DNA from: Gloeobacter morelensis MG652769 | GTDB taxonomy: Bacteria > Cyanobacteriota > Cyanobacteriia > Gloeobacterales > Gloeobacteraceae | Length of the DNA: 64,000 nt | Assembly (NCBI RefSeq): GCF_021018745.1 | Contig: NZ_CP063845.1 | Span: 4,030,001-4,094,000 of the forward strand | Direction of reading: 5' to 3' | Shown here: piece by piece, positions 30,440 through 50,338 of the stretch | How the letters are laid out: the number at the start of each line of letters is the position of its first letter | Numbering within the stretch: position 1 is the stretch's first letter | Position numbers and translations under genes: made by a program | Notes under the pieces: generated by a model | Database searches by the model: none | The model's input: only the letters and a program-made list of their open reading frames with translations | What the model was told of the DNA's origin: nothing

Positions 30440-31804
30440 GTGCCCGCCGCACGTCTATCGAACTGGCTTGCCTTTGTCGCCGCCGCAGCTCTCTGGCTCG
30501 CTTTACAGGCGCACCGCCAGAACCTGGGCATTGCCTGGGAGGATAGCTATCACCACTGGCTGATCGCCGCCCATCTGGCGCGGACTGGTATTCTCACCGA
30601 CCCGCTCACCAGCACCAGCAACGGCTGGCTACCCGTCTATCACTGGCTGGCGGGGGGGTGGCTCGCGATCTTCGGTTGGCACAACTTGACTGCCCTGCAG
30701 ACCCTGAGCGCTTTGTTTTCAATTGCCGCAGCCGGGGTACTGGCCTGGCGGTGGGGTGTCGGTGCCGCCTGTTTGTTTTTGTTCAACCCGATCACCGTGC
30801 TGGGCGGCAGCCTGAGCGTTGCCGAACCACTCGCCGTGTTGCTCGTTGTACTGGGAGCGGTGGCCTGGCAGAAGGATGGCACCGTCATCGGCGCAGGGTG
30901 CTGGAGCCTTGTGGCCCTCACCGACAGGGGTTGCTGGCCGCTGGTACTTTTGGCTGTCGGCTGGCAAATTTTCCAGCGCCGCCCGGCCCGGCTCTCAGGG
31001 TGGGGGTGGCTCCTGCTGCCCGTCGCGGCCCTCGGCTTGGGATTGTTCCTCACCCAGGCGGAGGTTGGCCGCACCGCCGCGTGGGCCGCTGTCGATCAAG
31101 CCGCTTTGCCAAGCGCAGGCGACCGATGGCGCGAACTGGTCGCCTATTCGTGGAGACCCCTGGCGCTGCCTCTGCTTCTGGCGCTCGCCGGTACCCTTGC
31201 TGCCCGCCGCGAGGCACTCGGGCTGGGCCTGATTGCCTTCGGCTACCTCGCTACGCTCGTCGCCCTGGTGACCGGGGGAGCGCTCACCGGCAGCAGCCGC
31301 TACTATCTGGTGCTGGTGGCTTTGCTCGCGGCCCTCGCTTCGACCCGGCCTTTGCTGCGCCTGCTTCAACTGCCTGCCGTGGCGGTGCTGCTGCTTTTTA
31401 GTTTTCAGTACCTGCAACTTTGGCCGCGCTGGGTGATCCTCAACCAACCGTCGGAACTAGCCGGGCGCTGGCTTGCCAGTCACTCGTCCTCTGGAATCCT
31501 GGTCACCGACAGCCCCGTGATCGCCTACTTTAGCCGCTTGCCTCCCGAGCGGATCGCAGGCGGTAAAGTGCCTCTGCCCGCCGAAACGCGCTACATTGCA
31601 GCAATCGTTGATGGGCGCTACCGGCAAATCTATCCGCTGCTGCGAAGCTATCCCGAACTGGCCGTGGGCGCGCTCCCCGCAGGCTGGCGTCTTATCTACC
31701 AGGCGCGCCACTGGAGCGAGCGCTACGGCGGCAAACCTGTGCGCGTGTTCACCGTCGACGCGGCTCCCCACCAAGCCGCATCTGGGGGGTTGGGATCAAC
31801 GTAA
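30440..31804 (+). CDS. Polytopic membrane glycosyltransferase-like protein (GT-C type)
   Basis: This 454-aa protein has about ten hydrophobic segments (residues 5-335) and a soluble C-terminal part (about 336-454). The acidic pair in the first outer loop, GIAWEDSYHHWLIAAHLAR, resembles the catalytic loop of GT-C enzymes (ArnT/Dol-P-Man-dependent type), which use lipid-linked sugars at the membrane. The start is GTG at 30440. It follows the GHL10-like gene by 31 bp. Its last 120 or so codons (from 31413) are repeated, diverged, at 48165-48533, where they are an orphan fragment. The soluble C-terminus may therefore have been replaced by an integration event. Confidence 0.75.
   Translation: MPAARLSNWLAFVAAAALWLALQAHRQNLGIAWEDSYHHWLIAAHLARTGILTDPLTSTSNGWLPVYHWLAGGWLAIFGWHNLTALQTLSALFSIAAAGVLAWRWGVGAACLFLFNPITVLGGSLSVAEPLAVLLVVLGAVAWQKDGTVIGAGCWSLVALTDRGCWPLVLLAVGWQIFQRRPARLSGWGWLLLPVAALGLGLFLTQAEVGRTAAWAAVDQAALPSAGDRWRELVAYSWRPLALPLLLALAGTLAARREALGLGLIAFGYLATLVALVTGGALTGSSRYYLVLVALLAALASTRPLLRLLQLPAVAVLLLFSFQYLQLWPRWVILNQPSELAGRWLASHSSSGILVTDSPVIAYFSRLPPERIAGGKVPLPAETRYIAAIVDGRYRQIYPLLRSYPELAVGALPAGWRLIYQARHWSERYGGKPVRVFTVDAAPHQAASGGLGST
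31413..31804 (+). repeat. Left direct repeat of the RiPP island (3' end of the glycosyltransferase gene)
   Basis: From TGCAACTTTGGCCGCGC at 31413-31429 to the end of the gene, this segment matches 48166-48533 in the same orientation. The first 17 bp are identical; at protein level roughly two thirds of positions agree by eye (LQLWPR, PSELAG, TDSPV, PERIAGG, LLRSYP, HWS-RYG). The two copies bracket 16.7 kb holding the YcaO locus. Confidence 0.8.
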
Positions 31805-32830: not shown

Positions 32831-35800
32831 CTACTCTTCCTGAGCAGGAAGCGAGCGAGCGATTACCGGAAGATCCGGTTGGATATCAGCCTGGATAGCT
32901 TGACGTCGATCTTGTTGAAATGTGCGATCCAAGTGAATAAATAGCCACTGCTCGAGGTCGTCGATGTAGGTGAAGACCACTGGGACTACCACCAAGGTCA
33001 GCAGTGTCGAGGTGATCAGCCCACCCACGACTGCAATCGCCATGGGTGAGCGCGTTTCGGCCCCGGCCCCGAGCGAGAGGGCGATGGGCAGCATGCCTGC
33101 GATCATCGCGACGGTGGTCATCAGGATCGGGCGCATTCGGGTTTCGCCCGCGCTCATAATCGCCTCCAATCTCGGTCGGCCTCCCTTCATCGCCATCAGG
33201 CAGTATTCGACCAGAAGGATCGCATTTTTGGTTACCAATCCCATCAGCATCACAATGCCAATCAGGGCGTACATCCCCATCGACTTGCCCAACAGCAGCA
33301 GTCCTGCCAGGGCACCGCCCAAGGCCAAAGGTAGCGAGATCATGATGGTGAGCGGTTGCAAAAAGCCGCCAAACAACAAAACCAACACCGCGTAAACCAG
33401 CAGCACCGCCACGGCAATAGCGCCGCCAAAACCGTTGAAGACGTCTTTTTGTACCTCGGCATCGCCCGTCGCTTTCTCCCGGACACCGGCGGGTAAGTTG
33501 CGCAGGGCGGGCAACTGGTGCACTCGCGCCAAGGCCGGTCCAAGTTCGCTGCCCGGTGCCAGGTTGGCTTCAACGGTGACCTTGCGGGAGCGGTCGTAGC
33601 GCTCGATCTGGGAGATTCCCGTGTTCAGGCGAATGTCGGCGACGGCTTTCAGGGGCACCAGCTGTCCGCTACCGTTGGTGAGCTGCAGATTTTCGATCGC
33701 CTGGAGATCTTGGCGAAAGCGCGGATCGAGCAGAACGCGGATGTTGATTTGCCGACCGGGTAGATTGAACTTTGCCAGGGAGGTGGGGTTGTCCCCAAGG
33801 GTGGCCACCAAAGCGGTGCGGGCAATCGCCTCTACCGACACCCCCTGATCGGCGGCTCGGGCAAGGTTGGGAACGACGCGCAGTTCGGGCCGGGCGAGTT
33901 CGGATGCGAGATTGACGTCGGTCAGTCCTGGCACCGAGCGCATCTGATCCACCAGCAGCGAGCCGGAACGCTCGAGGGCAATCGAATCGTCGGATTGAAG
34001 GACAATTTGCAGTTCCTTGCCGCCGGTGAAACTGCTGCCCGCGAAAGACAAACGCACCCCCGGCACCTGCTCAAGCTTTTTTCTCAATTCGGCTTCGACC
34101 TGTTTTTCGTTCAACCGCCTCTGCTCTTTGGGTTTGAGGTAGATGAAGAACAGGTTCTGGTTTTTCTTGTCGCCAAAAGTGCCCACCCCACTAAAAACCC
34201 GATCGACTGCCGGATGGGCCTCCATCAGCGCGCTCATCTGCAGAGCGCTCTGACGGGTTTGCTCGATAGGCGTGCCCGGCGGCATCAGGACATACAGATT
34301 GATCTCGCCGTCATCGGCGGCATTCACCAGCGAAGTCGGTACCTGAGGCCACAGCCAGAGGCTCATGGCAAATACCCCGGCAGCCAGCACCACCGTCAAG
34401 TTCCGATGCTGCAGAGCCCTGATCAGCAGATAGTCGTAAGCGCGCACCAGCCAGCTTTTTTGCTCTGTGTGCGGCAACGGCTGCATCCAGTAAGCGGCCA
34501 TCAAGGGTGTGAGCATCCGTGCCACCAGCAGTGAAAAGAGCACCGCAGCCGCCACCGACCAGCCGAACTGCCGGAAGTACTGGCCCTGGATGCCTTCCAT
34601 GAAGGCCACCGGCAAAAACACCGCCACGATCGTCAGTGTGGTGGCGACGACCGCCAGACCGATCTCGTCGGCCGCATCCAGGGCTGCCTGGAAGGGGGAT
34701 TTGCCCATCGCCGTGTGGCGGATGATGTTTTCAATCTCGACGATGGCGTCGTCCACCAGAATACCGACCACCAGCGCCAGCGCCAGAAGCGTCATGTTGT
34801 TGAGCGTGAAGCCCGCCAGCTTCATCGCCGCGAACGTCGGGATCGCCGAGAGTGGTATAGCAAGACCCGCGATAAAAGTCGCCCGCCCATCGCGCAAGAA
34901 AAGCCAGATGACCACCACCGCCAGCGACGCTCCCAAGAGCAACGCCTCGACCGACGCGCTGTAGGATTCGCGCACAAAAGTGGCGTTAGTCCAGCTTTTG
35001 CGGATCTCGACGCCGGCGGGCAGGCTACGCGCCAGCTCGCGCATCTTCGCGTCGATGGCTTCCTCGACCGCCACCAAATTACTGCCGCTGGAGCGGATGG
35101 CTCCAAGGTAGACGACCGGCACCCGGTTCAAAAAAGCAAGGTTATCAGGATCGCTCTCGCCGTCGGTAATGCGGCCCAAGGTATCGAGGCGGGCATGACG
35201 TCCATCCCCCAGTGCGATCTGGGTAGTGCGCAGTTGCTCGACAGTACTGGCCGAGCCGAGGGTGCGGATCGCCTGCTCGGTGGTACCCACTTCCCCCCGG
35301 CCACCGGGCAGGTTGGTGTTCAGTGAGCGGATCTGCGCATCGACATCCAGGGCGGTGATCCCCAGCGCCTGCAGCCGGTTTGGATCGAGCTGCACCCGAA
35401 TTTCCCGTGTGACCCCGCCCGAGCGCCAGACCCTGGCCACCCCGGGCACCGTGAGCATGGCGCGAGTCACATCGTTGTCGGCGATCCAGCTCAACTCCTT
35501 GACCGAGCGGCTTGCGGAGAGCACTTCGTACTCGACCAGAGTCTCGGCATCTCGGCCGGCTTCTACCCGACGGATCACCGGCTGGTCGATATTCTGGGGC
35601 AATGAGGAACGAATCTTGGCAACGGCATCGCGCACATCGTTGACGGCTCGGTCAAAGTTGGTGCCAAGCAGAAACTCGATCTCGGTCGAGGAGGATCCGT
35701 CTTTAATCTGCGAGGTGATATGCCTGATGTTGCCGATGCCTGCCACCGCGTCCTCGATCTTGCGCGTCACCTGGGTCTCCAGTTCCGGCGGGGCTGCTCC

Positions 35801-35962
35801 CAACTGGGTGACGGTGACGGAGACCTTCGGCACCTGCACGTCCGGGTCGATGGCGATCGGAAGCTGGACGAAGGCAGCCACCCCAGCCACCGTCAACAGC
35901 AAGAATAAGGCGATGGTGGGCACCGGGTTGCGGATGGACCAGGCAGAAAGATTCCAGGTCAT
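32831..35962 (-). CDS. RND-family inner-membrane efflux pump (HAE1/AcrB-like)
   Basis: This 1043-aa protein has the twofold AcrB architecture: TM1 NPVPTIALFLLLTVAGV, porter domains, the proton-relay motif VVGILVDDAIVEIENI with the two conserved Asp in TM4, and a second half ending in the TM segments near VVVPVVFTYIDDLEQW. It pumps substrates out using the proton gradient. No membrane-fusion or outer-membrane channel gene is adjacent. ATG at 35962 is chosen for its AGGAG five bases upstream. A Fur/Zur-like box lies 38 bases before the start, suggesting metal-responsive expression. It is last in the precursor-ycaO-tfuA line, 88 bp after tfuA. Confidence 0.92.
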   Translation of the reverse strand: MTWNLSAWSIRNPVPTIALFLLLTVAGVAAFVQLPIAIDPDVQVPKVSVTVTQLGAAPPELETQVTRKIEDAVAGIGNIRHITSQIKDGSSSTEIEFLLGTNFDRAVNDVRDAVAKIRSSLPQNIDQPVIRRVEAGRDAETLVEYEVLSASRSVKELSWIADNDVTRAMLTVPGVARVWRSGGVTREIRVQLDPNRLQALGITALDVDAQIRSLNTNLPGGRGEVGTTEQAIRTLGSASTVEQLRTTQIALGDGRHARLDTLGRITDGESDPDNLAFLNRVPVVYLGAIRSSGSNLVAVEEAIDAKMRELARSLPAGVEIRKSWTNATFVRESYSASVEALLLGASLAVVVIWLFLRDGRATFIAGLAIPLSAIPTFAAMKLAGFTLNNMTLLALALVVGILVDDAIVEIENIIRHTAMGKSPFQAALDAADEIGLAVVATTLTIVAVFLPVAFMEGIQGQYFRQFGWSVAAAVLFSLLVARMLTPLMAAYWMQPLPHTEQKSWLVRAYDYLLIRALQHRNLTVVLAAGVFAMSLWLWPQVPTSLVNAADDGEINLYVLMPPGTPIEQTRQSALQMSALMEAHPAVDRVFSGVGTFGDKKNQNLFFIYLKPKEQRRLNEKQVEAELRKKLEQVPGVRLSFAGSSFTGGKELQIVLQSDDSIALERSGSLLVDQMRSVPGLTDVNLASELARPELRVVPNLARAADQGVSVEAIARTALVATLGDNPTSLAKFNLPGRQINIRVLLDPRFRQDLQAIENLQLTNGSGQLVPLKAVADIRLNTGISQIERYDRSRKVTVEANLAPGSELGPALARVHQLPALRNLPAGVREKATGDAEVQKDVFNGFGGAIAVAVLLVYAVLVLLFGGFLQPLTIMISLPLALGGALAGLLLLGKSMGMYALIGIVMLMGLVTKNAILLVEYCLMAMKGGRPRLEAIMSAGETRMRPILMTTVAMIAGMLPIALSLGAGAETRSPMAIAVVGGLITSTLLTLVVVPVVFTYIDDLEQWLFIHLDRTFQQDRRQAIQADIQPDLPVIARSLPAQEE

Positions 35963-35999
35963 TTCAGCTCCTGGGCCACCGACCCGTGTTTTGGTTGCA

Positions 36000-36018
36000 G
36001 AGAACAATAATCATTATC
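36000..36018 (-). promoter_or_regulatory. Fur/Zur-like operator upstream of the RND pump gene
   Basis: GAGAACAATAATCATTATC matches the classic 19-bp Fur box at 16 of 19 positions, and the inner 15 bp also fit the 7-1-7 Zur palindrome at 12 positions. It lies between the tfuA stop and the RND start, overlapping a possible -10 (TATTGT on the minus strand, with TTGAGC as -35 at 36029-36034). This predicts that the pump is derepressed on iron or zinc limitation. Confidence 0.65.
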
Positions 36019-36050: not shown

Positions 36051-36725
36051 TCAATCGCGCTTTTGCCAGGGTCTCTCCTGGAGGAACTTCCACAAATCCC
36101 AGGACTTGATTCGGAATGGCTCAAAGTTTGCCAGCCACGTGTCGACGATGCCCGCCTCCATCTGCGGCCGGCACTCCAGGACGAGCTGCCGCAACAGTGC
36201 CAGAGTCCGGTAGCCGAACCAGAGACGCGACAAGTGCTCCACGACAGCCGCCGCCTCGCAGCGGGGGAGTCCGCCCCGGGTCACCAGGTCGTCGAGCGCG
36301 AAGCGCATGTGAATGAGCGGCTCAGTGATCGATGGGTAAGGGTGTGCCGGCCCGTGTAGGAGGGCGACCTCGTCGTCGGTGAAATCTTCGTCCTGCACGA
36401 AGCGCTCGTACACCGTGCCGTAACCGCGCATTCCCAGATCGCGCATTTCACAGGCGCGGATGGCGCCCATCGAGCAGAGCCCCCAAACCCGCCATCCCTT
36501 TTTGAGGGCTGTGCGCAGCTCGAGGTGCCCGACAGAGGGGAACTGGTGGAAGATGCCATCGACGATCACCAGATGGCCCGGGGGAGACTGGGAGGTCAAG
36601 GCTTCGACGTCGCCGCGGCGCACCGGCGGTAGACAGGTCACATCCAATCGCAGGTGTTTGAGCGGTTCGATGCCCTGCAGCGTCGGGCCGACGAAGAACG
36701 TGCACTTATTCGTGAAATCGGGCAT
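36051..36725 (-). CDS. TfuA-like protein, YcaO partner
   Basis: This 224-aa protein has the TfuA features: an N-terminal FFVGPTL segment, PPVRRGDVEAL, HLVIVDGIFHQFPSVGHLELRTAL, the WGLCSMGAIRACEMRDLGMRGYGTVYE block and DDEVALLHGPAHP. TfuA proteins act with YcaO enzymes to place sulfur into peptide backbones as thioamides. Examples are the thioviridamide and thiovarsolin pathways, trifolitoxin loci and methyl-coenzyme M reductase in archaea. Its start overlaps the end of the ycaO gene by 20 bp, so the two are translationally coupled and almost certainly act together. Confidence 0.9.
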   Translation of the reverse strand: MPDFTNKCTFFVGPTLQGIEPLKHLRLDVTCLPPVRRGDVEALTSQSPPGHLVIVDGIFHQFPSVGHLELRTALKKGWRVWGLCSMGAIRACEMRDLGMRGYGTVYERFVQDEDFTDDEVALLHGPAHPYPSITEPLIHMRFALDDLVTRGGLPRCEAAAVVEHLSRLWFGYRTLALLRQLVLECRPQMEAGIVDTWLANFEPFRIKSWDLWKFLQERPWQKRD

Positions 36726-37941
36726 AGTCCCTCAGCCTCGGTCCAATCCGTCTGGTGCTTCGGTCAAACATCTCCAGGCGAGGCACGATCAGCTTGAGCA
36801 CCTGTACCGGATCGTGCGGCTGGGTGAAGACGACCCGGCAGACATGCGCGATCCCCGCTTTCCGGATGGCGGCGACGAGCACCTCCCAGGCCGAGGACAG
36901 ATCGCAAACTTCACCAGATCGATCGCCAATCGCTTCAAAGCCAATCATTCCTTCGGGGCGTGAGACTTTGGCTGCCAGTTTTCGGCTGAAGGCCAGCTCC
37001 TGCTCGCCGTTCATCTGGGCAAGCAGCCGGTGGCGCTCGATGAGATCGTCCCGCCCGCCATGGATGAACGACAGGCGCCCCTGGACCGCTTCGCAGATAG
37101 CGCGCACCGCGGCGATCTCCTTGAAAGGGTGGCATCCGAAGCCGCCGCAAATGTAGACGGCATCGACCGGGTCCGGCTCCATGACGTAGGCGGCGAAGTA
37201 CGGCAACTCGAAGAGGTTCTCGACGTAGCGCAGCAGCAGGGTGAAACCGGCATCGCTGATCTGCTGTGCCAGGGCGGTCGGTTGCGGCGACAACGAAGCA
37301 ATGTCCACCAGTACCGAGGTGTCGTGCAGGAAACAAAATGACTGGATATCCCGTTCGATCACCTCGGCCAGTCCGTGCACGCTTGCCTCCCAGACGGAGT
37401 TGCCGGAACACAGGCCATTCGAACTCGACCCAAAATGCCTCTGCACCCCCTCTACCGCCGGGGCAGGCACGTAGACGAGTTCTGCCGGCACCAGGCATCG
37501 CGTCGAGCTGAGCAATTCCTCTGCTTCCACGCACGGCATCGGGTCATCGAGAGTAATCTGGGCGCCGATGACAGGACAAAAATCAAGAATAGCTTCCGGT
37601 CGTCTCCTGCCGTCGAGGACGTCGCGCGGTGTGGCCATCACGTAATCGACGGCCGAACGCCCATACTCGGCCATGGCAAACTCAATCGCTTCCATGTATG
37701 CCCCGACGCGCGCCTCCTCAGGACGGAGCCCTTTGCCTGCATTGACGCACAGAGAACCAGGCAGCGCCGTGGGTCGGATACTGGCAAAAACAGGAATGCC
37801 GATGCAGTCTAACCGGGTGGTGTCCGTCACGCGGGTGATCCCCAAGCGGCTTGCAAAAGCCCGCGCCCGCTGGAGAGTTTCCGCGAGCGCAGCCACGCGC
37901 AAACTCGAACTCATCCTATACAAATCTGTAGTCTCAGTCAT
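36706..37941 (-). CDS. YcaO-domain enzyme of the TfuA-linked (thioamide-forming) type
   Basis: YcaO enzymes use ATP to activate peptide-backbone amides. This 411-aa protein has the ATP/Mg-binding acidic clusters MEAIEFAMAEYG (E84, E87) and WEASVHGLAEVIERD (E186, E193, E196) and the GFGCHPFKEIAAVRAICEAVQ segment. Azoline-forming cyclodehydratases usually end in PxPxP; this protein ends in RDYARFHE. With a TfuA gene fused by overlap, that points to thioamidation instead of heterocyclisation. The substrate is very probably the repeat precursor encoded 174 bp upstream. The start at 37941 has no clear Shine-Dalgarno; an in-frame ATG at 37914 is possible. Confidence 0.9.
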   Translation of the reverse strand: MTETTDLYRMSSSLRVAALAETLQRARAFASRLGITRVTDTTRLDCIGIPVFASIRPTALPGSLCVNAGKGLRPEEARVGAYMEAIEFAMAEYGRSAVDYVMATPRDVLDGRRRPEAILDFCPVIGAQITLDDPMPCVEAEELLSSTRCLVPAELVYVPAPAVEGVQRHFGSSSNGLCSGNSVWEASVHGLAEVIERDIQSFCFLHDTSVLVDIASLSPQPTALAQQISDAGFTLLLRYVENLFELPYFAAYVMEPDPVDAVYICGGFGCHPFKEIAAVRAICEAVQGRLSFIHGGRDDLIERHRLLAQMNGEQELAFSRKLAAKVSRPEGMIGFEAIGDRSGEVCDLSSAWEVLVAAIRKAGIAHVCRVVFTQPHDPVQVLKLIVPRLEMFDRSTRRIGPRLRDYARFHE

Positions 37942-38115: not shown

Positions 38116-38412
38116 TCAGTTGCGAGAAGCTTCAAGGAAACCACCGCCGCTGTGGTGTGCGGAACTAACCTCTGCAAACCCGCCGCCGCTGTGGTGTGCG
38201 GCACTCGCTTCGCTGAAGCCACCACCGCTATGATGTGCGGAGCTGGCCTCTACAAACCCGCCGCCACTGTGGTGCGCAGCACTTGCACCGAGCGAGCGAA
38301 GGCCAAGCAGCTCTTCAAAAAACAGACCGGATTTCCCATCGAGTTGCAGGGAAATCGTTTGGGATGCGGCAGTACCCGGCTTCACACTATTCGGACCGTA
38401 ACAGTTAAGCAT
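38116..38412 (-). CDS. Candidate multicore RiPP precursor with four His-rich repeats
   Basis: The product is 98 aa from ATG 38412 (GGAG eleven bases upstream); an ATG at 38433 would add seven residues but has no ribosome site. An N-terminal leader of about 42 residues ends in GLFFEELLGLRSLG, the kind of amphipathic segment modifying enzymes dock on. Four tandem 13-residue units of the form [A/V]S-x-A-HHSGGGF-x-E follow, then a short ASRN tail. The repeats contain no Cys or Thr, only Ser, Gly and His. Directly downstream on the same strand are ycaO and tfuA. I infer thioamidation inside the repeats and cleavage into several small peptides. The His pairs suggest metal binding. No protease gene is in the locus. 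Confidence 0.8.
   Translation of the reverse strand: MLNCYGPNSVKPGTAASQTISLQLDGKSGLFFEELLGLRSLGASAAHHSGGGFVEASSAHHSGGGFSEASAAHHSGGGFAEVSSAHHSGGGFLEASRN
38131..38286 (-). repeat. Four in-frame 39-bp repeats coding the core peptides
   Basis: Units lie at 38248-38286, 38209-38247, 38170-38208 and 38131-38169. The AHHSGGGF octapeptide is invariant, while codons for His, Ser and Gly vary between copies (CAC/CAT, AGC/AGT, GGC/GGT/GGG). The position before AHH alternates A, S, A, S, and units 1 and 3 share codons that 2 and 4 do not. This hints that a 78-bp pair was duplicated. Silent variation with protein identity indicates selection on the peptide. Confidence 0.9.
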
Positions 38413-38502: not shown

Positions 38503-38543
38503 GCTGATAAAACTGACGCTTACACAGAAGGAGTTCGGTTTGA

Positions 38544-38563
38544 TATACCCCCCAGGGGGATGT
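38544..38563. promoter_or_regulatory. CsoR/InrS-like metal-sensor operator candidate
   Basis: TATACCCCCCAGGGGGATGT has the C-tract/G-tract dyad with A/T flanks recognised by CsoR/RcnR-family copper or nickel sensors, such as CsoR and cyanobacterial InrS. It lies in the 251-bp divergent region between the precursor (minus strand) and the ABC exporter genes (plus strand), where it could control either. No CsoR-family gene is in the window. The right half-site is imperfect. Confidence 0.45.
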
Positions 38564-38684: not shown

Positions 38685-40418
38685 ATGATGTTGCAACGCC
38701 GTCTGCTGGCTCTGACCCGGGGAGCGCGCGTTCGGCTTGCAGCGACGGCGGCGCTGGGACTGGCAGCCACAGGAACGTATATCGTCCAGGGTTTACTGAC
38801 TGCGCGAGCGGTGGACCAGATCTTGCGAACGGGCTCCTGGTCGTCGATTCTGGACAGTCTTGGTGGGATTGCAGCCTGTATCGTCCTGCGGATCGCTCTT
38901 GTGTGGCTGCGCGAGGTGAGTGCGGTGGAGGTGGCATCGGCTGTGAAACAGATGCTGCGCACGCGGCTTTTCAACCGGCTGCTGTTGCTGGGGCCGGGCT
39001 ATCTCGAAACCAGGCGTACCGGGGCGGTACAGGCAACGGTGGTAGACAGTGTGGAAGCCCTGGAAGGGTATATGGGCTACTACCTTCCGCAGGTGTGCAT
39101 CGCCCTGTGTGCCCCGGCGCTGATCGTAAGCGGACTGTTCGCCCTGGATCCGGTGGTGGGTGCGCTGACGCTCGGTTGCGTACTCGTCGCTCCTTTCGGT
39201 CCCACACTCTATGACTGGCTGCTGGGGGACTATGGCCGCCGCCACTGGCAGGCCTACAGCCGTCTGGGTGCTCAGTTCCTCGACAGCATGCAGGGGATGA
39301 CGACCCTGAAGGCGTTCAATGCGAGCGGACGCCGGGGGTTGACTTTGCAGCGCGAGGCGACGGACTTGTACCGGGCGACCATGGCACAGATGTCTTTGTC
39401 GCTGGTCGGTTCGGGTATTGCAGGCTTGGCCCTCAGTGCCGGTACGGCGCTCGCGGTCGGGGTGGGGGCGCTGCATCTGGCTGAGGGCAGCTTGAGCATT
39501 CCGGGTTTGCTGACCATTTTGTTTCTCTCAGCCGAATGCTTTCGTCCCCTGGCTGATCTCAATACGTATTGGCACCTGGGTTACAGAGGGATTTCCGCTT
39601 CCCCCGCCGTCTTTGAGCTATTGGAAGCACAGCCGGTGGTGGGCGAAGCGGCGATCTCGGGGTCGGTCGGAGCAGAATCCGGCACTCTGGCCGTTGGCTT
39701 CGAGAACGTCATATTTGCCTACACCGATGGGGAGCGTCCAGCCCTGGGTGGGCTCTCGTTTGAGGTGGGACCCGGTGAGACCGTCGCCCTGGTCGGGCGC
39801 TCGGGAGCGGGCAAATCGACGGTGGTCTCGTTGCTGTTCCGCTTTTTCGACCCGCAGAGCGGACGGATTACACTCGCCGGCCGAGATATCAGGGAGTATT
39901 CACTCGAAAGCTTGCGCAGCTTGATCGCAGTGGTACCGCAGGAGACGTACCTTTTTCACGGCACGGTAGCTGAGAACCTGCGGCTGGGTAGACGCGACGC
40001 CACACCCGCCCAACTGGAAGCGGCCGCAAGGACGGCAAACGCCCACGACTTTATTGCCGAAATGCCCGAGGGCTATCAGACCATCGTCGGTGAACGGGGA
40101 TTGAAGCTTTCCGGCGGGCAGCGCCAGCGCCTCGCGATTGCCCGGGCACTGTTGAAAGATGCTCCCCTACTGATTCTGGATGAAGCAACATCCAGCGTGG
40201 ATGCGGCCAACGAGGCGCAAATCCAGCAGGCGCTCGAACGCCTGCGCTCCGGTCGCACCACACTGGTGATTGCCCATCGGCTCTCGACGGTGGTGAATGC
40301 CGATCGCATCGTGGTACTCGAACAAGGACAGGCCGTTCAAGCAGGACGCCATCGAGACTTGCTCTCGCAGCCGGGGGCATACGCGCGATTGGTAACGGCA
40401 CAGCAAGGAACTTTATGA
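38685..40418 (+). CDS. ABC exporter half-transporter, CydD-like
   Basis: This 577-aa fusion of a six-helix type-1 exporter domain (about residues 1-315) with an ATPase domain has Walker A GRSGAGKSTVVSLLF, the signature LSGGQRQRLAIARAL, Walker B LLILDEATSSVD and the H-loop VIAHRLSTV. TLKAFNASGR and AECFRPLADL are reminiscent of CydD. It overlaps the next half-transporter by 4 bp, so the two form a heterodimer. Divergent orientation from the precursor and shared promoter region suggest export of the peptide or of a thiol/metal complex. It has no C39 peptidase domain, so it would not remove the leader. Confidence 0.9.
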   Translation: MMLQRRLLALTRGARVRLAATAALGLAATGTYIVQGLLTARAVDQILRTGSWSSILDSLGGIAACIVLRIALVWLREVSAVEVASAVKQMLRTRLFNRLLLLGPGYLETRRTGAVQATVVDSVEALEGYMGYYLPQVCIALCAPALIVSGLFALDPVVGALTLGCVLVAPFGPTLYDWLLGDYGRRHWQAYSRLGAQFLDSMQGMTTLKAFNASGRRGLTLQREATDLYRATMAQMSLSLVGSGIAGLALSAGTALAVGVGALHLAEGSLSIPGLLTILFLSAECFRPLADLNTYWHLGYRGISASPAVFELLEAQPVVGEAAISGSVGAESGTLAVGFENVIFAYTDGERPALGGLSFEVGPGETVALVGRSGAGKSTVVSLLFRFFDPQSGRITLAGRDIREYSLESLRSLIAVVPQETYLFHGTVAENLRLGRRDATPAQLEAAARTANAHDFIAEMPEGYQTIVGERGLKLSGGQRQRLAIARALLKDAPLLILDEATSSVDAANEAQIQQALERLRSGRTTLVIAHRLSTVVNADRIVVLEQGQAVQAGRHRDLLSQPGAYARLVTAQQGTL

Positions 40419-42202
40419 CACTGGAACAGGTACCGGCTCCGGAAGGGATCCAATGGGACGGCCAAACCCTCCCGCCCCGCCCGTCCGGGTTCTGGAAGCT
40501 CCTGGCGATGTTGAAGAGCCACTTTTGGCTGATGGGTCTGACCATCGCTTCTGGGATCACCAACCAGGCCATGGCGATTGCCGCCACTTGCCTCGGGGCT
40601 TATCTGGTCGGTACAGCGGTAACTGGCAGCAACGTCGAGGCGCTCGTACCCCTGCTGTGGCTTCTGGGCGGTACCGTGCTGCTGCGGGCACTGATGGCCT
40701 GGCTTGAGATGTGGCTCGCCCACGATCTGGCCTACCGCATCCTGGCCGATGTGCGCGGCGCACTGTATCGGGCACTCGAACGACTGGCGCCAAGTTATCT
40801 GCTCGATCGCCGCAGCGGGGATCTCGCTTGCTCCGTGATGTCCGACGTTGAGATGCTGGAGTGGTTTTACGCCCACACGGTGGGAACGTTTGTCGTGGCC
40901 GTGGTCGTGCCGGTCGGCGCACTGATTGCCCTGGCGACGCTGCATGGACTGCTGGTGCTCTCGTTGTTGCCGGCCCTCGTCCTGGTGGTGAGTATTCCTC
41001 TGTGGTTTGGCCGGCGTGCCTCCCGCGAAGGCAAGGCGTTGCGCCGGCAGTTGGGCGAAGTCAACGCGGAGGTCGTGGATGCGGTGCAGGGATTGCGAGA
41101 GATCGTCGCTTTCGGCCAGGGCGGGTATTTCGGCGAAAGGCTTGCCCGTCGCGACCGGGAGCTGCGCAAAAGCCAGATGGCCCACGGCGGCCGGGCTGGT
41201 CTTGAGGGTGCTCTCACCAATGGGGCGGTTTCCCTGGGTATGCTGTGCGTGCTCGCGGCGGCCGCCTACCTGGTGGCACGTGGGTCGCTCGGCTTCGCTT
41301 TTTTCCCGTTGAGTATTGTGCTTGCCGCTTACACCTTTGAGCCCGTCGTGGCGCTCACCCGAATCACTCAGAACCTCGGCGTGATTTTCGCAGCGGCAGA
41401 GCGGGTCTTCGCGGTGCTCGATGCGCCGGCTTTGGTCGAGGACAAAGTGGCAGCGCCCCCTACCGGACAGATAGTGCCCCACGTGCGATTCAATCAAGTC
41501 AGCTTCCGCTACGGTCCGGCGCTCCCCAATGCCCTGGAGAATGTCTCGTTCGAGGTGGCAGCGGGAGAAACGGTTGCTTTGGTCGGGCACTCCGGTGCGG
41601 GTAAATCCACCTGCATTCACCTGCTGCTGCGCTTTTGGGACACTACGGCCGGATCGGTCACGATCGGGGGCCATGATTTGCGCAATTTTCCGCAAGCCAC
41701 GCTGCGGGAACTGATCGCACTGGTGCCGCAAGATATTTATTTATTCAATATGAGCATCCGGGACAACATTCGCCTGGGTCGGCCCGCCGCTTGCGACGAA
41801 GAAGTCAAAGCAGCCGCCCGCCTGGCCTTGGCAGACGAATTTGTCTGCTGCTTGCCCCAGGGCTATGACACGAATGCTGGTGAGCGTGGCCTGCAATTAT
41901 CAGGTGGGCAGCGCCAGCGCATTGCCATCGCACGAGCGTTGCTCAAAAATTCACCCATCCTCGTGATGGACGAAGCAGTTTCCAACCTGGACACCGAGAA
42001 TGAACTGGCACTCCAGACAGCCATGGACCGCCTGCGCTCCGGACGGACCACGCTGGTGATTGCCCATCGGCTTTCGACCATCCGCAGCGCCGATCGGATT
42101 GTCGTCCTCCAAGCCGGACAGGTAGTCGAGACAGGAACCCACGCGCAACTGATGCGGCGTGGGGGGCGCTACGCCGAACTGCTTGCCGCGCAGCACAACT
42201 GA
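40415..42202 (+). CDS. ABC exporter half-transporter, CydC-like partner
   Basis: This 595-aa half-transporter has TM helices at about residues 35-330. Its ATPase has Walker A GHSGAGKSTCIHLLL, signature LSGGQRQRIAIARAL, Walker B ILVMDEAVSNLD and H-loop VIAHRLSTI. The start codon overlaps the stop of the first half-transporter (ATGA), which is strong evidence for a heterodimer. Walker B has Glu followed by AVSNLD, so both sites look ATPase-competent. Its end is nine bases from the convergent ABC-2 permease gene. Confidence 0.9.
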   Translation: MTLEQVPAPEGIQWDGQTLPPRPSGFWKLLAMLKSHFWLMGLTIASGITNQAMAIAATCLGAYLVGTAVTGSNVEALVPLLWLLGGTVLLRALMAWLEMWLAHDLAYRILADVRGALYRALERLAPSYLLDRRSGDLACSVMSDVEMLEWFYAHTVGTFVVAVVVPVGALIALATLHGLLVLSLLPALVLVVSIPLWFGRRASREGKALRRQLGEVNAEVVDAVQGLREIVAFGQGGYFGERLARRDRELRKSQMAHGGRAGLEGALTNGAVSLGMLCVLAAAAYLVARGSLGFAFFPLSIVLAAYTFEPVVALTRITQNLGVIFAAAERVFAVLDAPALVEDKVAAPPTGQIVPHVRFNQVSFRYGPALPNALENVSFEVAAGETVALVGHSGAGKSTCIHLLLRFWDTTAGSVTIGGHDLRNFPQATLRELIALVPQDIYLFNMSIRDNIRLGRPAACDEEVKAAARLALADEFVCCLPQGYDTNAGERGLQLSGGQRQRIAIARALLKNSPILVMDEAVSNLDTENELALQTAMDRLRSGRTTLVIAHRLSTIRSADRIVVLQAGQVVETGTHAQLMRRGGRYAELLAAQHN

Positions 42203-42211
42203 AGCGCGCCT

Positions 42212-43654
42212 CTAGCCGGTGATTGGATAGCGGCGCAAGGCTGAGAGGCCGACTAGACCAATGAGCACAGCAGGAGCAATCAACCCCAGCAGACTGCCAA
42301 GGACGCGCTCGGTGAGCGGGCCGGGAGCTTCTTCAGAGAACCTAAAGCGCTGCCGCGCTTGTAGGTCATACGTGTCGAAGTACCGCTTACCCATCGTGTC
42401 GGCGCGAAAGAACTTCTGCCAGTCGCGGTGGTAGACCTCTACCTGTCCCAGGAAGTGGCGGTAGCGGGCCACACCGGTACCGGCCAGGTCGTTGAGCGCT
42501 TCTTGGGTGACCACGGCCGGGGAGAGGTAGCGATAGCGGTCCACCCACTCCTGCTGGCGCAAAAGCTGTGCGTCGAAGCGTTCGAGCACCGGCCGGACGC
42601 GCCGGTCAACCTCCGCCTGGACGAGCGTGTAGCGGACGCCGTAATCGGTGTAGTTAAATCCGCCCTTACCCTCGGCGGCCAATTCCGGATGGTCCGCCTG
42701 GTACTTGCTCAGGAACTGGTCGCTTTGGTCGCTGGCGGCGCTGGACGCTTCGCGCAGGGACTGGATCATCTCAAGCCGCGAGGGCATCGGATCGACAGCG
42801 CTGATCGTGATGTTGACCAGGGCCGGAATCAGCATCACAAAGGCCAGCCACAGGCCCATCAAGGCGACGGCATTGGTCGCGGAACTGCCGCCCAGGGCGT
42901 TTACCGCTACCGCGGCTGCAAACCAGAAAGCTCCGTAAGATGCGACCACCAGTATCCATAATCCCAAGCGCAGGGCGGTGCCCGGTGCCCCCAGTTCGGC
43001 ACCGCCCAGAACGACCCCGGCCAGGGAAAAAACGACGGCCAGCGCCAGGACGATCAAAGCCCGAAAAGCGATTTTGCCGAGTACGAAGGTAGCGAGGGCC
43101 ACCGGCTGCGACAGCAACATCGAGAGCGTGCCCTCGTCGCGTTCCTGGGAGATGAGGTTGTAGCTCAAAGCCAGGATCAACAGCGGGTAGAGATAAACGA
43201 TCACGAAGGCCAGATCGAAGTGCCCAGCCAGCAAGTTGGTCGGGTTCTCGATCTCGTTGTTGTTGATGAAAGCCTGCTTGCTGGCGGTGGTCACCTTGAA
43301 GTAGTACGGGTAGAGATCGCTTTGACCGACCGATAGGGAGGCCAGGGGACCGGGCGGCATCACCGCGTAACGCCCCGCAAGCGAGTAGCCGACCCACCAG
43401 GCACTGGCCTGCGGAGCCTCTTTCAATGCGGCCGTCGGTCCGTGCTCAAGGGACGCCAACTGCTTACCCAGCGAGGCCAACCGTGTTGCCTCGTCCTGCC
43501 TGGCGGTCTGGATCGCCTCCTGCTGGAACTGCACCCAGGCGGCCCCGTTGTAGACCCCATAGCCAATCAGGAGCGCGAACAGGCCGACGATGGGCCAAAG
43601 GGTGCTTTGGGCAACCAGGTTGCGCCACTCGTGCTTGATAATTGGCCCTAACAT
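42212..43654 (-). CDS. ABC-2-type permease with DUF3526-like domain (second of a pair)
   Basis: This 480-aa membrane protein has an N-terminal helix (TLWPIVGLFALLIGYGVY), a large soluble loop and a block of five helices in the middle (SQERDEGTLSMLLSQPVAL is the ABC-2 hallmark). A further soluble segment and a last helix ending in RRYPI follow. Such proteins pair with a co-oriented sister permease and an ATPase and are often found beside TonB receptors. ATG at 43654 has AGGAAG upstream. It is 45 bp downstream of the sister permease gene. Confidence 0.85.
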   Translation of the reverse strand: MLGPIIKHEWRNLVAQSTLWPIVGLFALLIGYGVYNGAAWVQFQQEAIQTARQDEATRLASLGKQLASLEHGPTAALKEAPQASAWWVGYSLAGRYAVMPPGPLASLSVGQSDLYPYYFKVTTASKQAFINNNEIENPTNLLAGHFDLAFVIVYLYPLLILALSYNLISQERDEGTLSMLLSQPVALATFVLGKIAFRALIVLALAVVFSLAGVVLGGAELGAPGTALRLGLWILVVASYGAFWFAAAVAVNALGGSSATNAVALMGLWLAFVMLIPALVNITISAVDPMPSRLEMIQSLREASSAASDQSDQFLSKYQADHPELAAEGKGGFNYTDYGVRYTLVQAEVDRRVRPVLERFDAQLLRQQEWVDRYRYLSPAVVTQEALNDLAGTGVARYRHFLGQVEVYHRDWQKFFRADTMGKRYFDTYDLQARQRFRFSEEAPGPLTERVLGSLLGLIAPAVLIGLVGLSALRRYPITG

Positions 43655-43699
43655 CTGCGCTTCCTGTTCCAGTTGGCTCGACTCGACACAAAACATTCC

Positions 43700-45118
43700 T
43701 CAATCGACGCGCAGCCTGGTTGTAGCCTGAAAGGCGGCCGTCACACCGACAACCAACCAGCCCAGGGCAAAGACGATGCTCCAGGAGTAATTGGTCAGCA
43801 CCCAGCCGACCGACGGCATCCGGTAAGTAAAAGCCGGTACCTTTGCCCACGTCTCGGCACCGACCGTATCCTCCCAATTGCCCGCTTCTGTGTGGAGCAT
43901 CTCCTCGTTCATCGTCTTGATCAAACCGCGGCGGTAGCTCTCGGCCGCCCTGGCAAAATCGCGGTGCTGGGCAAAATCCGTGCCGGACAGGCCCATCGAA
44001 AGCGTCCGCACGGCCAGCAAGGGTGCGAAGAGTGCCCCCCATTGATGAACGGTGTTCTGGCGCTCGAAAGTTTGCCAGAGGGAGCCGTAGTGCTTGTCGA
44101 AAACTTTGTTGCCGTAGTTCTCGCCCTCCTGCAAGGCGATGGCATCGAAGTTGATCGGCAAATCCTCGACCCGCTTGACTCCGTACTGCTTGAGAGTCTG
44201 GGCCTTCAAAACGGCCAGGCGGGCGTCGGCGGAGTTGTGACCGGTGACGCCGTTGTCGATGTCCTGCTTGACGGCCTGAGCGAAAGCGAGGGCGGAGGGA
44301 CCGGGGTAAACGCGTCTTGCCAGATCGGCAACGGCGCGGGGTGCTACCAGGCCGTTGCCGATCCAAAAAGCGAGCAACAGCACGAGGGCCAGTTGGGAGG
44401 AGCGTACCGCGGCCGATACAGCGAGCGACAGGCCGACGAATGTGCCGAAGTAGACAAGATAACTGGCACCCATCAGCAACACGCGCACTGCACTTGTGAT
44501 CATTGCGTCCGGCCCGGCCGAGAGGGCGAGGGCGATCACGCCGAGAATCGTCGCCGGGACCAGCAGCAGCGAAAGGGCAAAGCTGGTGCCCAGGGCTTTG
44601 CCGAGGGCCAGATCCCGCCTGGGTACCCCCAGGCTCAGCACCTGCCTGAGCGTGCCCCTCTCGCGTTCATCCGCAAAAGCACCAAACGTCAACAGCACGA
44701 TGAGCAGTGGCAGCAACTGCTGCAGCACCGTAGCGGCGGTCAGCTCGCTGAAGCGCTGCACAGCGGTGGCGTCCTGGGCTGGGCGATAGCGAAAGTCGTT
44801 TTGCTTGTGCGCCTCCAGCCATACCGCCGCACCGACGTACTTCTCCACTCCCACGTCCACCGACGCGAGCGGCAGTTGAGGCCGGAAGGCATACACGCCG
44901 TAGTGAGCCGCCGAATGGGGATTTTTACGGCCCTGGGCGAGCCACTGCGCGCGGGTGATCCGTTCTGCCGCCGCCCGCTCTGTGGCGCTATCGCTGTAGT
45001 GCTTCCAACCGGCAGCCAGTGACGCCAGAAGCAGGCACCCGACGATGAGCGCCGCGAGCCGAAAGCGACCGTCGCGCACGATCTCTGTGGTCTCTTTGCG
45101 TGCGATCCGGATAATCAT
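43700..45118 (-). CDS. ABC-2-type permease with DUF3526-like domain (first of a pair)
   Basis: This 472-aa membrane protein has the same layout as its downstream neighbour: N-terminal anchor (RLAALIVGCLLLASLAAGW), soluble domain, central helices with ADERERGTLRQVLSLGV, and a soluble part before the last helix. The pair would form the membrane channel of an ABC exporter. The gene for its ATPase should be upstream, and only a deleted remnant is found there (45150-45298). The pair may be non-functional or may borrow another ATPase. Confidence 0.85.
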   Translation of the reverse strand: MIIRIARKETTEIVRDGRFRLAALIVGCLLLASLAAGWKHYSDSATERAAAERITRAQWLAQGRKNPHSAAHYGVYAFRPQLPLASVDVGVEKYVGAAVWLEAHKQNDFRYRPAQDATAVQRFSELTAATVLQQLLPLLIVLLTFGAFADERERGTLRQVLSLGVPRRDLALGKALGTSFALSLLLVPATILGVIALALSAGPDAMITSAVRVLLMGASYLVYFGTFVGLSLAVSAAVRSSQLALVLLLAFWIGNGLVAPRAVADLARRVYPGPSALAFAQAVKQDIDNGVTGHNSADARLAVLKAQTLKQYGVKRVEDLPINFDAIALQEGENYGNKVFDKHYGSLWQTFERQNTVHQWGALFAPLLAVRTLSMGLSGTDFAQHRDFARAAESYRRGLIKTMNEEMLHTEAGNWEDTVGAETWAKVPAFTYRMPSVGWVLTNYSWSIVFALGWLVVGVTAAFQATTRLRVD

Positions 45119-45149: not shown

Positions 45150-45298
45150 TCAGTCCCGCATATTCTCTAGATAAATACGCTCCAACTGAGCCGGATCGAT
45201 ATCTTCACAAACATGACTCACAAGCAGCCGGCCCTGTTCCGTTTGTCAAGGGCCGTTGCGCCGCTGTAGACCTTGGTGGGATCAGTTGCCTCGAACAC
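45150..45298 (-). pseudogene. Internally deleted ABC ATPase gene, N- and C-terminal ends only
   Basis: A GTG at 45298 with GGGAG six bases upstream opens VFEATDPTKVYSGATALDK, which matches the first 20 residues of ABC ATPases (TKVY...ALD). In another frame the last 32 codons read TEQGRLLVSHVCEDIDPAQL then ERIYLENMRD-stop, a typical C-terminus of ATPases paired with ABC-2 permeases. The whole middle, including Walker A, signature and Walker B, is missing. The stop is 31 bp before the permease gene at 45118, where the ATPase gene is expected. I read this as one internal deletion of several hundred bases. Confidence 0.65.
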
Positions 45299-45450
45299 AC
45301 TTGGCTCCCTGGACTTCGGCAAAATTTGGCACTGTTTGCCCACATAGCCTAATCGCCGCGGTCGGGGCAGTCCATCCGGCCCCGGGGGATATAGGGATGC
45401 GGTCACTTCCGATACTGTTAAGACTGCCGGTGGAAGGGAGTGAACGCGTC

Positions 45451-48150
45451 ATGAACACGAAGTGCGGACCCAAGCCGTGTCTATGGTTGATTGTGCCAAT
45501 CGCTCTCAGTTTCAGCTTGTCGGACACGGCGGTAACCGCACAACCAACAATGCGGACGGCAATCGCCCCACGGAGCAGCAGTGCCCAGAGCGGTGGCGAG
45601 GGGGCAAAGGCTTTGCTTCAGCCGGCAGCCGGCACCGCCGCCGACCTGGAACACCGCCCGGCCTTGTGGGATTGGACCCGGCCGCTCACCGCACCGGCCG
45701 CAATCAGCCAGGCGGGGGGAGCGACGCCGATTGCGCCTGCCGCCGCGTCTCAAGGAGCTTCCGCCCCGGGGGAGAGCGCCGATATTCTCGATGAAGTCTC
45801 GGTCACCGCCACCCGCCGCCCCACCCGGCAACGCGACACGACGGCGACGACCTATACGGTCAAAAGAGCAGATTTCCAGGTTCAAGGGGCCAGAACGGTC
45901 ACAGACGCGCTGGTGCTGATTCCCGGCTTCGAGGGGCCGCCTGCTTTGGGTGGAGTGCGCAACTCGGGGTTCAATTTCTTGCGGGGCTTCGACGACCAGC
46001 GGTTTCTAGTGCTCAGGGACGGAGTGTCGCTGCAGCGCTCCGGCAACAACCGCTCCGACATCACACGCTTCAACGTCGATGAGCTGGAAAGCATCGAGGT
46101 GGTGACCGGCGGTGCGACGCTCCGCTACGGTTCTGGAGCCGTGGGCGGTGTGATCAACTTGATTACCGAGACACCCAGGGGACTGCCGAAGTTGACCCTC
46201 GCCTACGAAGCGGGCAGCTACGGCTTCAGCCGCTACCTGGCCAAGTACGGCGGTGGCGACGACACGCTTAGCTACAACTTGCTCTTCTCGAGCCTGGTTG
46301 CCTTCAACAACTACCCTTACAGTTTCACCCTGCCCAACCAGGCGCGCTTCTATGGCCCCACGGTCAACCCGAACGCGGCGGCCTCGGGCCTCGCCTTCGA
46401 TGCGGAGGGCAACCCAATCAGCTCCTTCGGCCAGCCCAATCCCGACCCTGAGAACAGCGGCGATATCGACCTGTACGGCTACCTCAAGCCGGAGGTCGGT
46501 CCGCCCATCACCGTCAAAGGTGTCGCAGATAATGCTTTTAACGCTAACGACAGCTACGCGGGCAAGCTCGTCTTCAAGCCCGATCCCGCGAACAAACTGA
46601 CCCTAAGCCTCCACCAGCAAAATTCTAAGTTCAGCAACGACGGCCCCGGCGCTTACGGTTTTATTCCTTGTTTTGGCGGTGCTCTGCCTCCTGGAGTCAC
46701 CAACGGGACTTTGAGTTTTTCCCGCTTCTTGCCCCTCAATCCGGACGGCAGCGAATCGGCTTGCACCGTGACGCCCTACATCGTCAACACCGCGAGCGTG
46801 AATTTGGGCATCAACTCGCTGCTGGGCAACTACGCCGCTCCCTACACCACTTCGCTCGATGGAAAGGTGAACTTCCCGGCCGGCAGCGCCTACCCGAACG
46901 CAGAACCGGCCACCGGTACCCAAGTCAGCTACCGGGTCGACAACCAGACGCAGACCGAGGCCGCTTTGTTCTGGGACTACACGCTCACGCCCACCACCTC
47001 CATCAACAGCTATATCTCCTACTACCGATTGACATCCACCGCCTTCATCGCGCCGCTCTTCTTCAACACCAACTTCTTCGGAGCGGGCGAGTCGCCCTTT
47101 GCCGTCTCCCAACCGTCGCAGCCCTACAACGAGGGCAACAAACTCGAAATCCAGAGCGCACTGAACACCCAACTCACCGCCGGACAGACCCTCTCGTTTG
47201 GGATCAACTTTGTGCAGGACCGCAGCTACGCCCAGGTCGGGGGGGGTACCGGGTTCGTCGACAGCGCCATCTCGCGCACGTCCGTCTTTTTGATCGACGA
47301 CATCAGCTTTAGCGACCAGCTCAAGGCAAACCTTGGTTTTCGCTACACCTACAGCACCCAGTTCGGCAGCGTCGGCACTCCCGCAGTCGGCATCCGCTAC
47401 ACCCCAACGAACTTCCTCTCGCTGCGGGCCAACGGTTCCTACGTGTTCAACGCGCCGAGCATCGCCGACCTCACCGTTACGGGAGGCTTCCTCCTGGCAA
47501 ATCCCGGGCTGCGCCCCGAATCGGGCGTCACCTACGATGTCGGCGTCGATATTACCCCGGCGCAAAACCTGGGTGTGCAGGTCACCTATTTCAACACCTA
47601 TCTGGACGGATTCATCGGTTTTGCAGCGCTCATTCAAGATGGCAACCTGCGCTTTCAACGGCAGAACCAGAATACCCGGATTGCCTCGGGCATTGAGGTG
47701 GCAGCCAACTGGCAGCTCACCGACCAGCTGCGGCTGAGAGTCGCCTACACGAACACCGACGCCCGCAATGTCGGTGCAGTCGACAGCCTAGAGCAGTCCA
47801 CTTACCCGTATTTCTTTCAGTTTCAAGATCAGAGCATCCCGTTCAACAAAATCGCCGCCGCCTTTTCCTACGCAAATCAGGGGCTGAATGCCTCGCTGCT
47901 TTTTCGCTACGACGACGGCAAGCGGCGCGGGGTGACCGGCCTGGGAGGCTCGACCGATTTCACTCCATCCTTTGCAACCCTGGACCTCAATGTCGAAGTT
48001 CCCATTTCACAGAACTTTACTTTGACGGGCAGTGTCTTCAACTTGACCGATACGCAGTACGAGTACCTCAGCGGCATCCCGGCTCCAGGCACTACCTTTC
48101 GTGTGGGCGGCAGGATTGAATTTGGAGGGGATGCCCAGGGGAGCAATTAA
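45451..48150 (+). CDS. TonB-dependent outer-membrane receptor (RiPP-locus paralogue)
   Basis: This 899-aa receptor has a signal peptide (LIVPIALSFSLSDTAVTA), the pre-plug segment AADLEHRPALWDWTRPL, DEVSVTATRR, the plug motif EVVTGGATLRYGSGAVGGVINLIT and a long barrel. It ends in RVGGRIEFGGDAQGSN, with no aromatic final residue. It is a close paralogue of the receptor at 6188-8989. ATG at 45451 has AAGGGAG ten bases upstream. Placement at the end of the YcaO locus suggests import of the peptide's metal complex. It diverges from the permease pair. Confidence 0.92.
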   Translation: MNTKCGPKPCLWLIVPIALSFSLSDTAVTAQPTMRTAIAPRSSSAQSGGEGAKALLQPAAGTAADLEHRPALWDWTRPLTAPAAISQAGGATPIAPAAASQGASAPGESADILDEVSVTATRRPTRQRDTTATTYTVKRADFQVQGARTVTDALVLIPGFEGPPALGGVRNSGFNFLRGFDDQRFLVLRDGVSLQRSGNNRSDITRFNVDELESIEVVTGGATLRYGSGAVGGVINLITETPRGLPKLTLAYEAGSYGFSRYLAKYGGGDDTLSYNLLFSSLVAFNNYPYSFTLPNQARFYGPTVNPNAAASGLAFDAEGNPISSFGQPNPDPENSGDIDLYGYLKPEVGPPITVKGVADNAFNANDSYAGKLVFKPDPANKLTLSLHQQNSKFSNDGPGAYGFIPCFGGALPPGVTNGTLSFSRFLPLNPDGSESACTVTPYIVNTASVNLGINSLLGNYAAPYTTSLDGKVNFPAGSAYPNAEPATGTQVSYRVDNQTQTEAALFWDYTLTPTTSINSYISYYRLTSTAFIAPLFFNTNFFGAGESPFAVSQPSQPYNEGNKLEIQSALNTQLTAGQTLSFGINFVQDRSYAQVGGGTGFVDSAISRTSVFLIDDISFSDQLKANLGFRYTYSTQFGSVGTPAVGIRYTPTNFLSLRANGSYVFNAPSIADLTVTGGFLLANPGLRPESGVTYDVGVDITPAQNLGVQVTYFNTYLDGFIGFAALIQDGNLRFQRQNQNTRIASGIEVAANWQLTDQLRLRVAYTNTDARNVGAVDSLEQSTYPYFFQFQDQSIPFNKIAAAFSYANQGLNASLLFRYDDGKRRGVTGLGGSTDFTPSFATLDLNVEVPISQNFTLTGSVFNLTDTQYEYLSGIPAPGTTFRVGGRIEFGGDAQGSN

Positions 48151-48533: not shown

Positions 48534-48691
48534 TCAAAGTCCGCTGAACACCCAAGCAAAAATTGGACGGCCTTTGAGCAGCATTCGGCCTGGAAAGGGG
48601 CAGTCTTTATCAAGGAACATACGGACAACTACCTGGGCAAAGTCTCGGCAAATTCAAATCGTTGAGATGTGCCCTTCCCCTGAGGTCAAAA

Positions 48692-50338
<1,647 letters not shown>

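Follow-up and report, generated by a model that had tools for sequence, protein, structure and literature searches.

The products of three genes, a precursor, a YcaO protein and a TfuA protein, are enough for thioamidation of the repeating core of the thiovarsolins, actinobacterial peptides with an APR/GPR core that have no His and no link to metals (PMC6511847). The ycaO-tfuA pair of methanogens associated with the thioamidated glycine of McrA provides the nearest curated models and structures for both enzymes described here and a plausible parallel in its glycine thioamidation; its substrate is a large archaeal metabolic enzyme rather than a repeat precursor, and the Gloeobacter enzymes score under both equivalog cut-offs (PMC5589413). 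Bufferins and other MNIO copper RiPPs, which are small, modified and linked to metal stress (PMC12452194, PMC13097082), offer a functional parallel, but the MNIO (DUF692) acts on Cys, whereas the Gloeobacter core has no Cys and no MNIO was found among the operon genes and the neighbouring genes scanned, which sets the locus apart from the bufferins. TfuA-related clusters have been counted in Gloeobacteria (Malit 2021; PMC8120280), probably with the present one among them, which means that clusters of this type were already known; the main text of that study describes neither the precursor nor its repeats nor its regulation. The core itself is undescribed in the open-access literature, in agreement with the initial annotation, which knew of no described product that carries it.

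We analysed a 64-kb stretch of the Gloeobacter morelensis genome (the window). Its minus strand carries the proposed short ORF, which reads MLNCYGPNSVKPGTAASQTISLQLDGKSGLFFEELLGLRSLGASAAHHSGGGFVEASSAHHSGGGFSEASAAHHSGGGFAEVSSAHHSGGGFLEASRN, from an ATG at 38412 to its end at 38116, with ycaO and an overlapping tfuA directly downstream (Table 1). We place the start at this ATG because GGAGAA precedes it and because, in the sister species, a one-base indel 5' of the ATG puts a longer, 105-aa reading out of frame. The four tandem 13-residue units claimed for this ORF are spaced by exactly 39 nt, and their AHHSGGGF octapeptide is invariant within the genome. The silent codon changes reported between units are borne out: over all repeat pairs the octapeptide codons show 28 silent and 0 replacing differences, as against 9 silent and 16 replacing differences in the 5-residue spacers. 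The octapeptides are under strong purifying selection. Between the sister species they differ by four silent changes and one replacing change, Ser to Gly in repeat 4, and the precursor as a whole has a dN/dS of ~0.3, indicating that it is a translated gene. When the composition of the ORF was shuffled, only 5 of 20,000 shuffles reached any 4-mer four times. Pfam and NCBIfam scans matched the leader to neither an RRE nor a known leader family; faint matches of the precursor to the Shiga-toxin B subunit (E 0.04-0.9, with no stretch passing) were set aside as chance.

Table 1. Features of the RiPP locus and its surroundings in the window
Feature	Position	Strand	Basis or remark
HAE1-type RND permease, last gene of presumed operon	32831..36007	-	no adjoining membrane-fusion protein; start codon tentative
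TfuA	36051..36725	-	Pfam/NCBIfam models, nearest structures
YcaO, thioamidation type (predicted)	36706..37941	-	Pfam/NCBIfam models, nearest structures
Precursor peptide gene, 98 aa, leader + four 13-residue units	38116..38412	-	ORF reading and repeat analysis
Repeat 4 octapeptide AHHSGGGF	38137..38160	-	AHHGGGGF in sister species
Repeat 3 octapeptide AHHSGGGF	38176..38199	-	
Repeat 2 octapeptide AHHSGGGF	38215..38238	-	
Repeat 1 octapeptide AHHSGGGF	38254..38277	-	
Predicted leader, residues 1-42, MLNCYGPNS...LLGLRSLG	38287..38412	-	presumed boundary
Precursor Shine-Dalgarno GGAGAA	38422..38427	-	
G-tract site GATATACCCCCCAGGGGGA, putative CsoR/RcnR/InrS-family-type operator, divergent promoter	38542..38560	.	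consensus from PMC3902906
ABC exporter half 1, CydD-like, divergent from precursor	38685..40418	+	no peptidase domain
ABC exporter half 2	40415..42202	+	
ABC-2 permease with DUF3526	42212..43696	-	56% identity to a permease of the other operon with a G-tract site; no adjacent ATPase gene
Second ABC-2 permease with DUF3526	43700..45118	-	64% identical to its counterpart
TonB-dependent receptor, same lineage-specific island	45256..48150	+	putative link to the RiPP

The genes are ordered precursor, ycaO, tfuA and RND permease, with tfuA overlapping ycaO by 20 nt and the permease gene following 44 nt beyond tfuA. YcaO and TfuA match their Pfam families at 8e-60 and 2e-35, respectively, and the top NCBIfam model of each is that of McrA-glycine thioamidation. 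YcaO reaches 190 bits under this model against a cut-off of 365, and so by its score is not the equivalog; TfuA reaches 122 bits against a cut-off of 235. The SagD azoline model gives YcaO 82 bits, as opposed to 190 for the thioamidation model. By sequence, the nearest solved structure to YcaO is MJ1094 (6pe3/6peu), and the nearest to TfuA is the TfuA-domain protein 6xp8; in these comparisons the nucleotide-binding motif regions align, with the MEAIE, EVIERD and EAVQGR motifs on the YcaO side. YcaO is thus a stand-alone protein with intact ATP-binding motifs, nearest to the thioamidation enzymes, with TfuA adjacent to it and a short precursor of predicted leader and core beside it, the combination found in thioamidated RiPPs. 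Clusters for azol(in)e RiPPs (TOMMs) encode an E1-like/ocin-ThiF cyclodehydratase partner and often an FMN dehydrogenase as well. We found neither of these, nor ThiS/ThiF, nor a peptidase, among the genes scanned or inspected at 22.5-45.1 kb and 53.1-54.6 kb. Taken together, the model and structure comparisons support grouping both enzymes with those that thioamidate and not with those that form azolines. The initial annotation had likewise set the peptide apart from azole RiPPs, reasoning that the repeats contain no Cys or Thr; they indeed contain neither, and the enzymes point the same way, but the argument overlooked the Ser in the repeat, which YcaO cyclodehydratases can use. The loss of this Ser from repeat 4 in the sister species argues against Ser as the modified residue and would leave the glycines as the best candidates.

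The precursor, ycaO and tfuA occur together in two sister Gloeobacter species, and all three are missing from every other genome of the order that was searched. The search for such repeats beside ycaO-tfuA in other genomes, suggested at the outset, therefore recovered the sister species and no further genome among those searched. Neither the order genomes, the 386 cyanobacterial genomes nor the plasmids yielded a precursor homologue apart from ycaO/tfuA, the finding that would have spoken against the annotation; indeed, no precursor match was found outside its own genome among the 386 cyanobacterial genomes, and none in plasmids. AHHSGGGF-coding stretches in 20 viral contigs were judged to be chance, with one match per contig and never in tandem, and no YcaO relative was found in the viral contigs. 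TfuA is present in 7 of the 386 cyanobacterial genomes. The six besides G. morelensis have long frames of 460-560 aa; these proteins (L048-L053) are about twice the usual length, have long uncharacterised C-terminal parts and adjoin ycaO. The Gloeobacter enzymes are 38-45% identical to proteobacterial relatives and 27-35% identical to cyanobacterial ones, and this greater likeness of both to the proteobacterial proteins suggests a horizontal origin. A broad contig scan with YcaO recovered one relative only, and absence outside Cyanobacteria is thus tentative.

The RND permease is of the multidrug (HAE1) type, not CusA. Neither half of the ABC exporter has a C39 peptidase domain, and no protease was found in the cluster. 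In a third, complete Gloeobacter genome (G003), the counterparts of the two flanking genes, that at 30440-31804 and the branching enzyme gene (50755), are 1.5 kb apart, indicating that 31.9-50.4 kb is a lineage-specific block, comprising a methyltransferase, the RND permease, tfuA, ycaO, the precursor, the ABC pair, two DUF3526 permeases, the TonB receptor and a glycine-rich protein. The last of these (48662-50338) is of low complexity, with long GG-rich stretches and no Pfam family. The sole gene between the flanks in G003 is TnpB-like (L122:7986-9197). PADLOC returned no match.

We examined the divergent promoter between the precursor and the ABC exporter, and found GATATACCCCCCAGGGGGATG, from 38542, which is unique in the 64-kb window (0.01-0.02 expected). 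Sites of CsoR are G-tract pseudopalindromes with TAC/GTA flanks, for which the Streptomyces consensus is ATATACCCCTNAGGGGTATAT (PMC3902906). At the RiPP promoter, TATACCCCCCAGGGG forms a perfect left half of such a pseudopalindrome, TAC flank included; on the right, the half-site departs from the TAC...GTA of the S. lividans CsoR consensus and is degenerate. Elsewhere in the G. morelensis genome, a csoR-copZ/copA locus encodes a RicR-like CsoR (C-H-H type), CopZ and a CPC-type CopA, and copZ and copA each have a G-tract site 20-21 nt ahead of them. The copZ and copA promoters of the genus suffice to define a 12-mer consensus, ACCCYCCWGGGG, of which the 5.1-Mb genome has four copies: the two cop sites beside csoR, one at the RiPP promoter and one within an ORF. 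The background of this 12-mer in other Gloeobacterales genomes is about 1-9 matches, which puts the chance of a match in the 252-bp RiPP promoter at ~1e-4 to 5e-4, not a negligible figure. Two divergent promoters in the genome, and no other place in it, carry the longer form GATATACCCCCCNGGGGGA, which is likewise found twice in the sister species. The second of these promoters, unlinked to that of the RiPP, separates a TonB receptor from an ABC-ATPase/DUF3526/DUF3526 operon, a paralogue of the permeases on the RiPP side. Since the GATATACCCCCCNGGGGGA pattern was composed from the two sites that it then recovered, the sole independent match is in G003, where GATATGCCCCCCTGGGGGA, a copy with one mismatch, stands 50 bp ahead of a TonB receptor (L155:1501-1519 / L165:6406). 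By eye, the second locus (L153:5417-11339; C1:1524000-1542000 in the G. morelensis genome) also has a Fur-box-like GAACGAGAATCGTTGTC, and the DUF3526 permease pair of the island, which has no ATPase of its own, may borrow the one encoded at L153:8274-9017.

The genome has three DUF156 genes. We initially considered the site copper-specific, given the CsoR encoded beside copZ and copA, but this assignment is weakened by G003, which has the motif before a TonB receptor and lacks a cop-type CsoR; its sole DUF156 protein is an InrS-like C-H-C protein with an N-terminal His run. Because InrS-like C-H-C proteins are present in all four genomes, an InrS-like protein is a better regulator candidate than the copper CsoR. 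InrS is the nickel sensor of Synechocystis and also binds copper and zinc (PMC4235346), which leaves the metal between Cu and Ni. The outer flanks of the RiPP site differ from those of the copZ and copA sites, the RiPP site lies ~130 bp from either start as compared with ~20 bp for the copZ and copA sites, and the promoter block is not conserved between the sisters above the genome average. On balance, we lean slightly towards control of the precursor promoter by a metal sensor. The site would lend indirect, independent backing to the suggestion that the peptide is a metal ligand; in the open-access literature we found no paper that links TfuA-YcaO to a metal sensor.

Our best overall explanation, to which we assign a probability of about 50%, is that the locus makes a thioamidated His-pair repeat peptide under a metal sensor, for metal handling. 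A DUF156-family (CsoR/RcnR/InrS) sensor would repress the precursor promoter until metal lifts the repression; YcaO would activate backbone amides with ATP, TfuA would help to bring the sulphur, and at least one amide in each repeat would become a thioamide, with the glycines as the likeliest positions. The His pairs and thioamide sulphur may then act as ligands for a metal of soft or borderline character, Cu(I) or Ni(II), and the peptide, whole or proteolysed, could either sequester the metal as an intracellular buffer or carry it out through the divergent ABC exporter, the RND permease or both. We favour this explanation because of the selection on the octapeptide, the enzyme models and structures, the absent E1-like partner and dehydrogenase, the thiovarsolin precedent and the recurrence of the G-tract; against it stand the simplicity of the G-tract sites, their differing flanks, the ~130-bp distance, the degenerate right half, the average conservation of the promoter and the HAE1 type of the RND permease. 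Its parts differ in strength. The ORF is very probably the RiPP precursor of the adjoining YcaO-TfuA pair, and the modification is likely, judging from the enzyme sequences, to be a thioamide. Cleavage into single units is an even call, and a metal-binding function of the peptide falls a little short of one.

Several other explanations account for part of these data. The repeats may be thioamidated, cut by host peptidases to identical small peptides and exported to serve as an antibiotic or a signal, with no role for metal and with the G-tract present by chance or controlling the ABC exporter only. The gene set and the logic of a repeating core match the thiovarsolins (PMC6511847), export is represented by two systems while the operon has no transporter specific for metals, and free spacers around a fixed octapeptide are expected if the octapeptide alone is the product. 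Nevertheless, the His-pair core is preceded by a site of metal-sensor type, which turns up again at the promoters of TonB receptors and copper-efflux genes, and the cluster is without a protease; we regard a purely antibiotic or signalling product as rather unlikely. That YcaO instead turns the repeat serines into oxazolines is improbable: although the repeat has a Ser and most of the YcaO superfamily forms azolines (PMC4603692), the tandem TfuA, the absence of both a cyclodehydratase partner and a dehydrogenase from the scanned neighbouring genes, the lower score of the SagD-type model and the Gly that replaces Ser in one repeat of the sister species all argue otherwise.

The precursor might also be an unmodified His/Gly-rich metal-binding protein, and YcaO-TfuA might modify some other substrate, for example a ribosomal protein. 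Two reports describe thioamidation of non-RiPP proteins, McrA and uL16, by YcaO enzymes (PMC5589413, PMC13063428), and the motif could bind metal by itself. We give this very little weight, since the precursor adjoins ycaO-tfuA, with both present in the two carriers and jointly missing elsewhere, the tight same-strand spacing suggests a single operon, and a housekeeping substrate fails to explain a range of two species. A thioamidated metal-handling peptide remains our preferred reading.

To our knowledge, the biological roles of most TfuA-YcaO thioamide RiPPs have not been established, and a metal-sensor-type promoter site would give one of them a testable function. Metal-binding peptides of ribosomal origin are made by oxazolone/thioamide (methanobactin) and by thiooxazole (MNIO) chemistry. 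If our reading is correct, backbone thioamidation would add a third such pathway, in a very deep-branching cyanobacterial lineage. On a more speculative reading, which we hold to be somewhat less likely than not, this is a metal-induced, multi-site thioamide peptide with four His-His/thioamide-Gly sites, whose CsoR/InrS-type sensor would be shared with TonB receptors and ABC-2 transporters, and which would act as a buffer or metallophore without MNIO or MbnBC chemistry.

The closest enzyme relatives that we found are encoded in YcaO-TfuA-ThiS-ThiF-MFS clusters on plasmids of Vibrio ostreicida, Paraburkholderia megapolitana and Pantoea ananatis (L066, L067 and L068), with 38-43% identity for YcaO and 39-45% for TfuA. 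Their precursors are short, with a conserved H-x-[AS]-N-N core that recalls AHHSGGG. Homology of leader or core, suggested by eye from H-x-[AS]-N-N and H-H-S-G-G, was not upheld by profile comparison (probability 0.1), and these clusters differ in that their precursors have one core in ~50 aa and in that they include sulphur-carrier genes of their own, an MFS transporter and one additional, uncharacterised gene. The Paraburkholderia and Pantoea clusters also include a cupin gene, and the Paraburkholderia plasmid has a second ycaO-tfuA pair. With the thiovarsolins (varA-varY-varT of Streptomyces varsoviensis; PMC6511847), the Gloeobacter system has in common tandem core repeats, a stand-alone YcaO, a TfuA and the lack of a dedicated protease. 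By contrast, its precursor contains no APR and has an AHHSGGGF core behind a different leader, and the system, which is cyanobacterial, is accompanied by RND and ABC exporters and by a G-tract site of metal-sensor type. We conclude that the Gloeobacter system works like the thiovarsolins but is not a member of that family.
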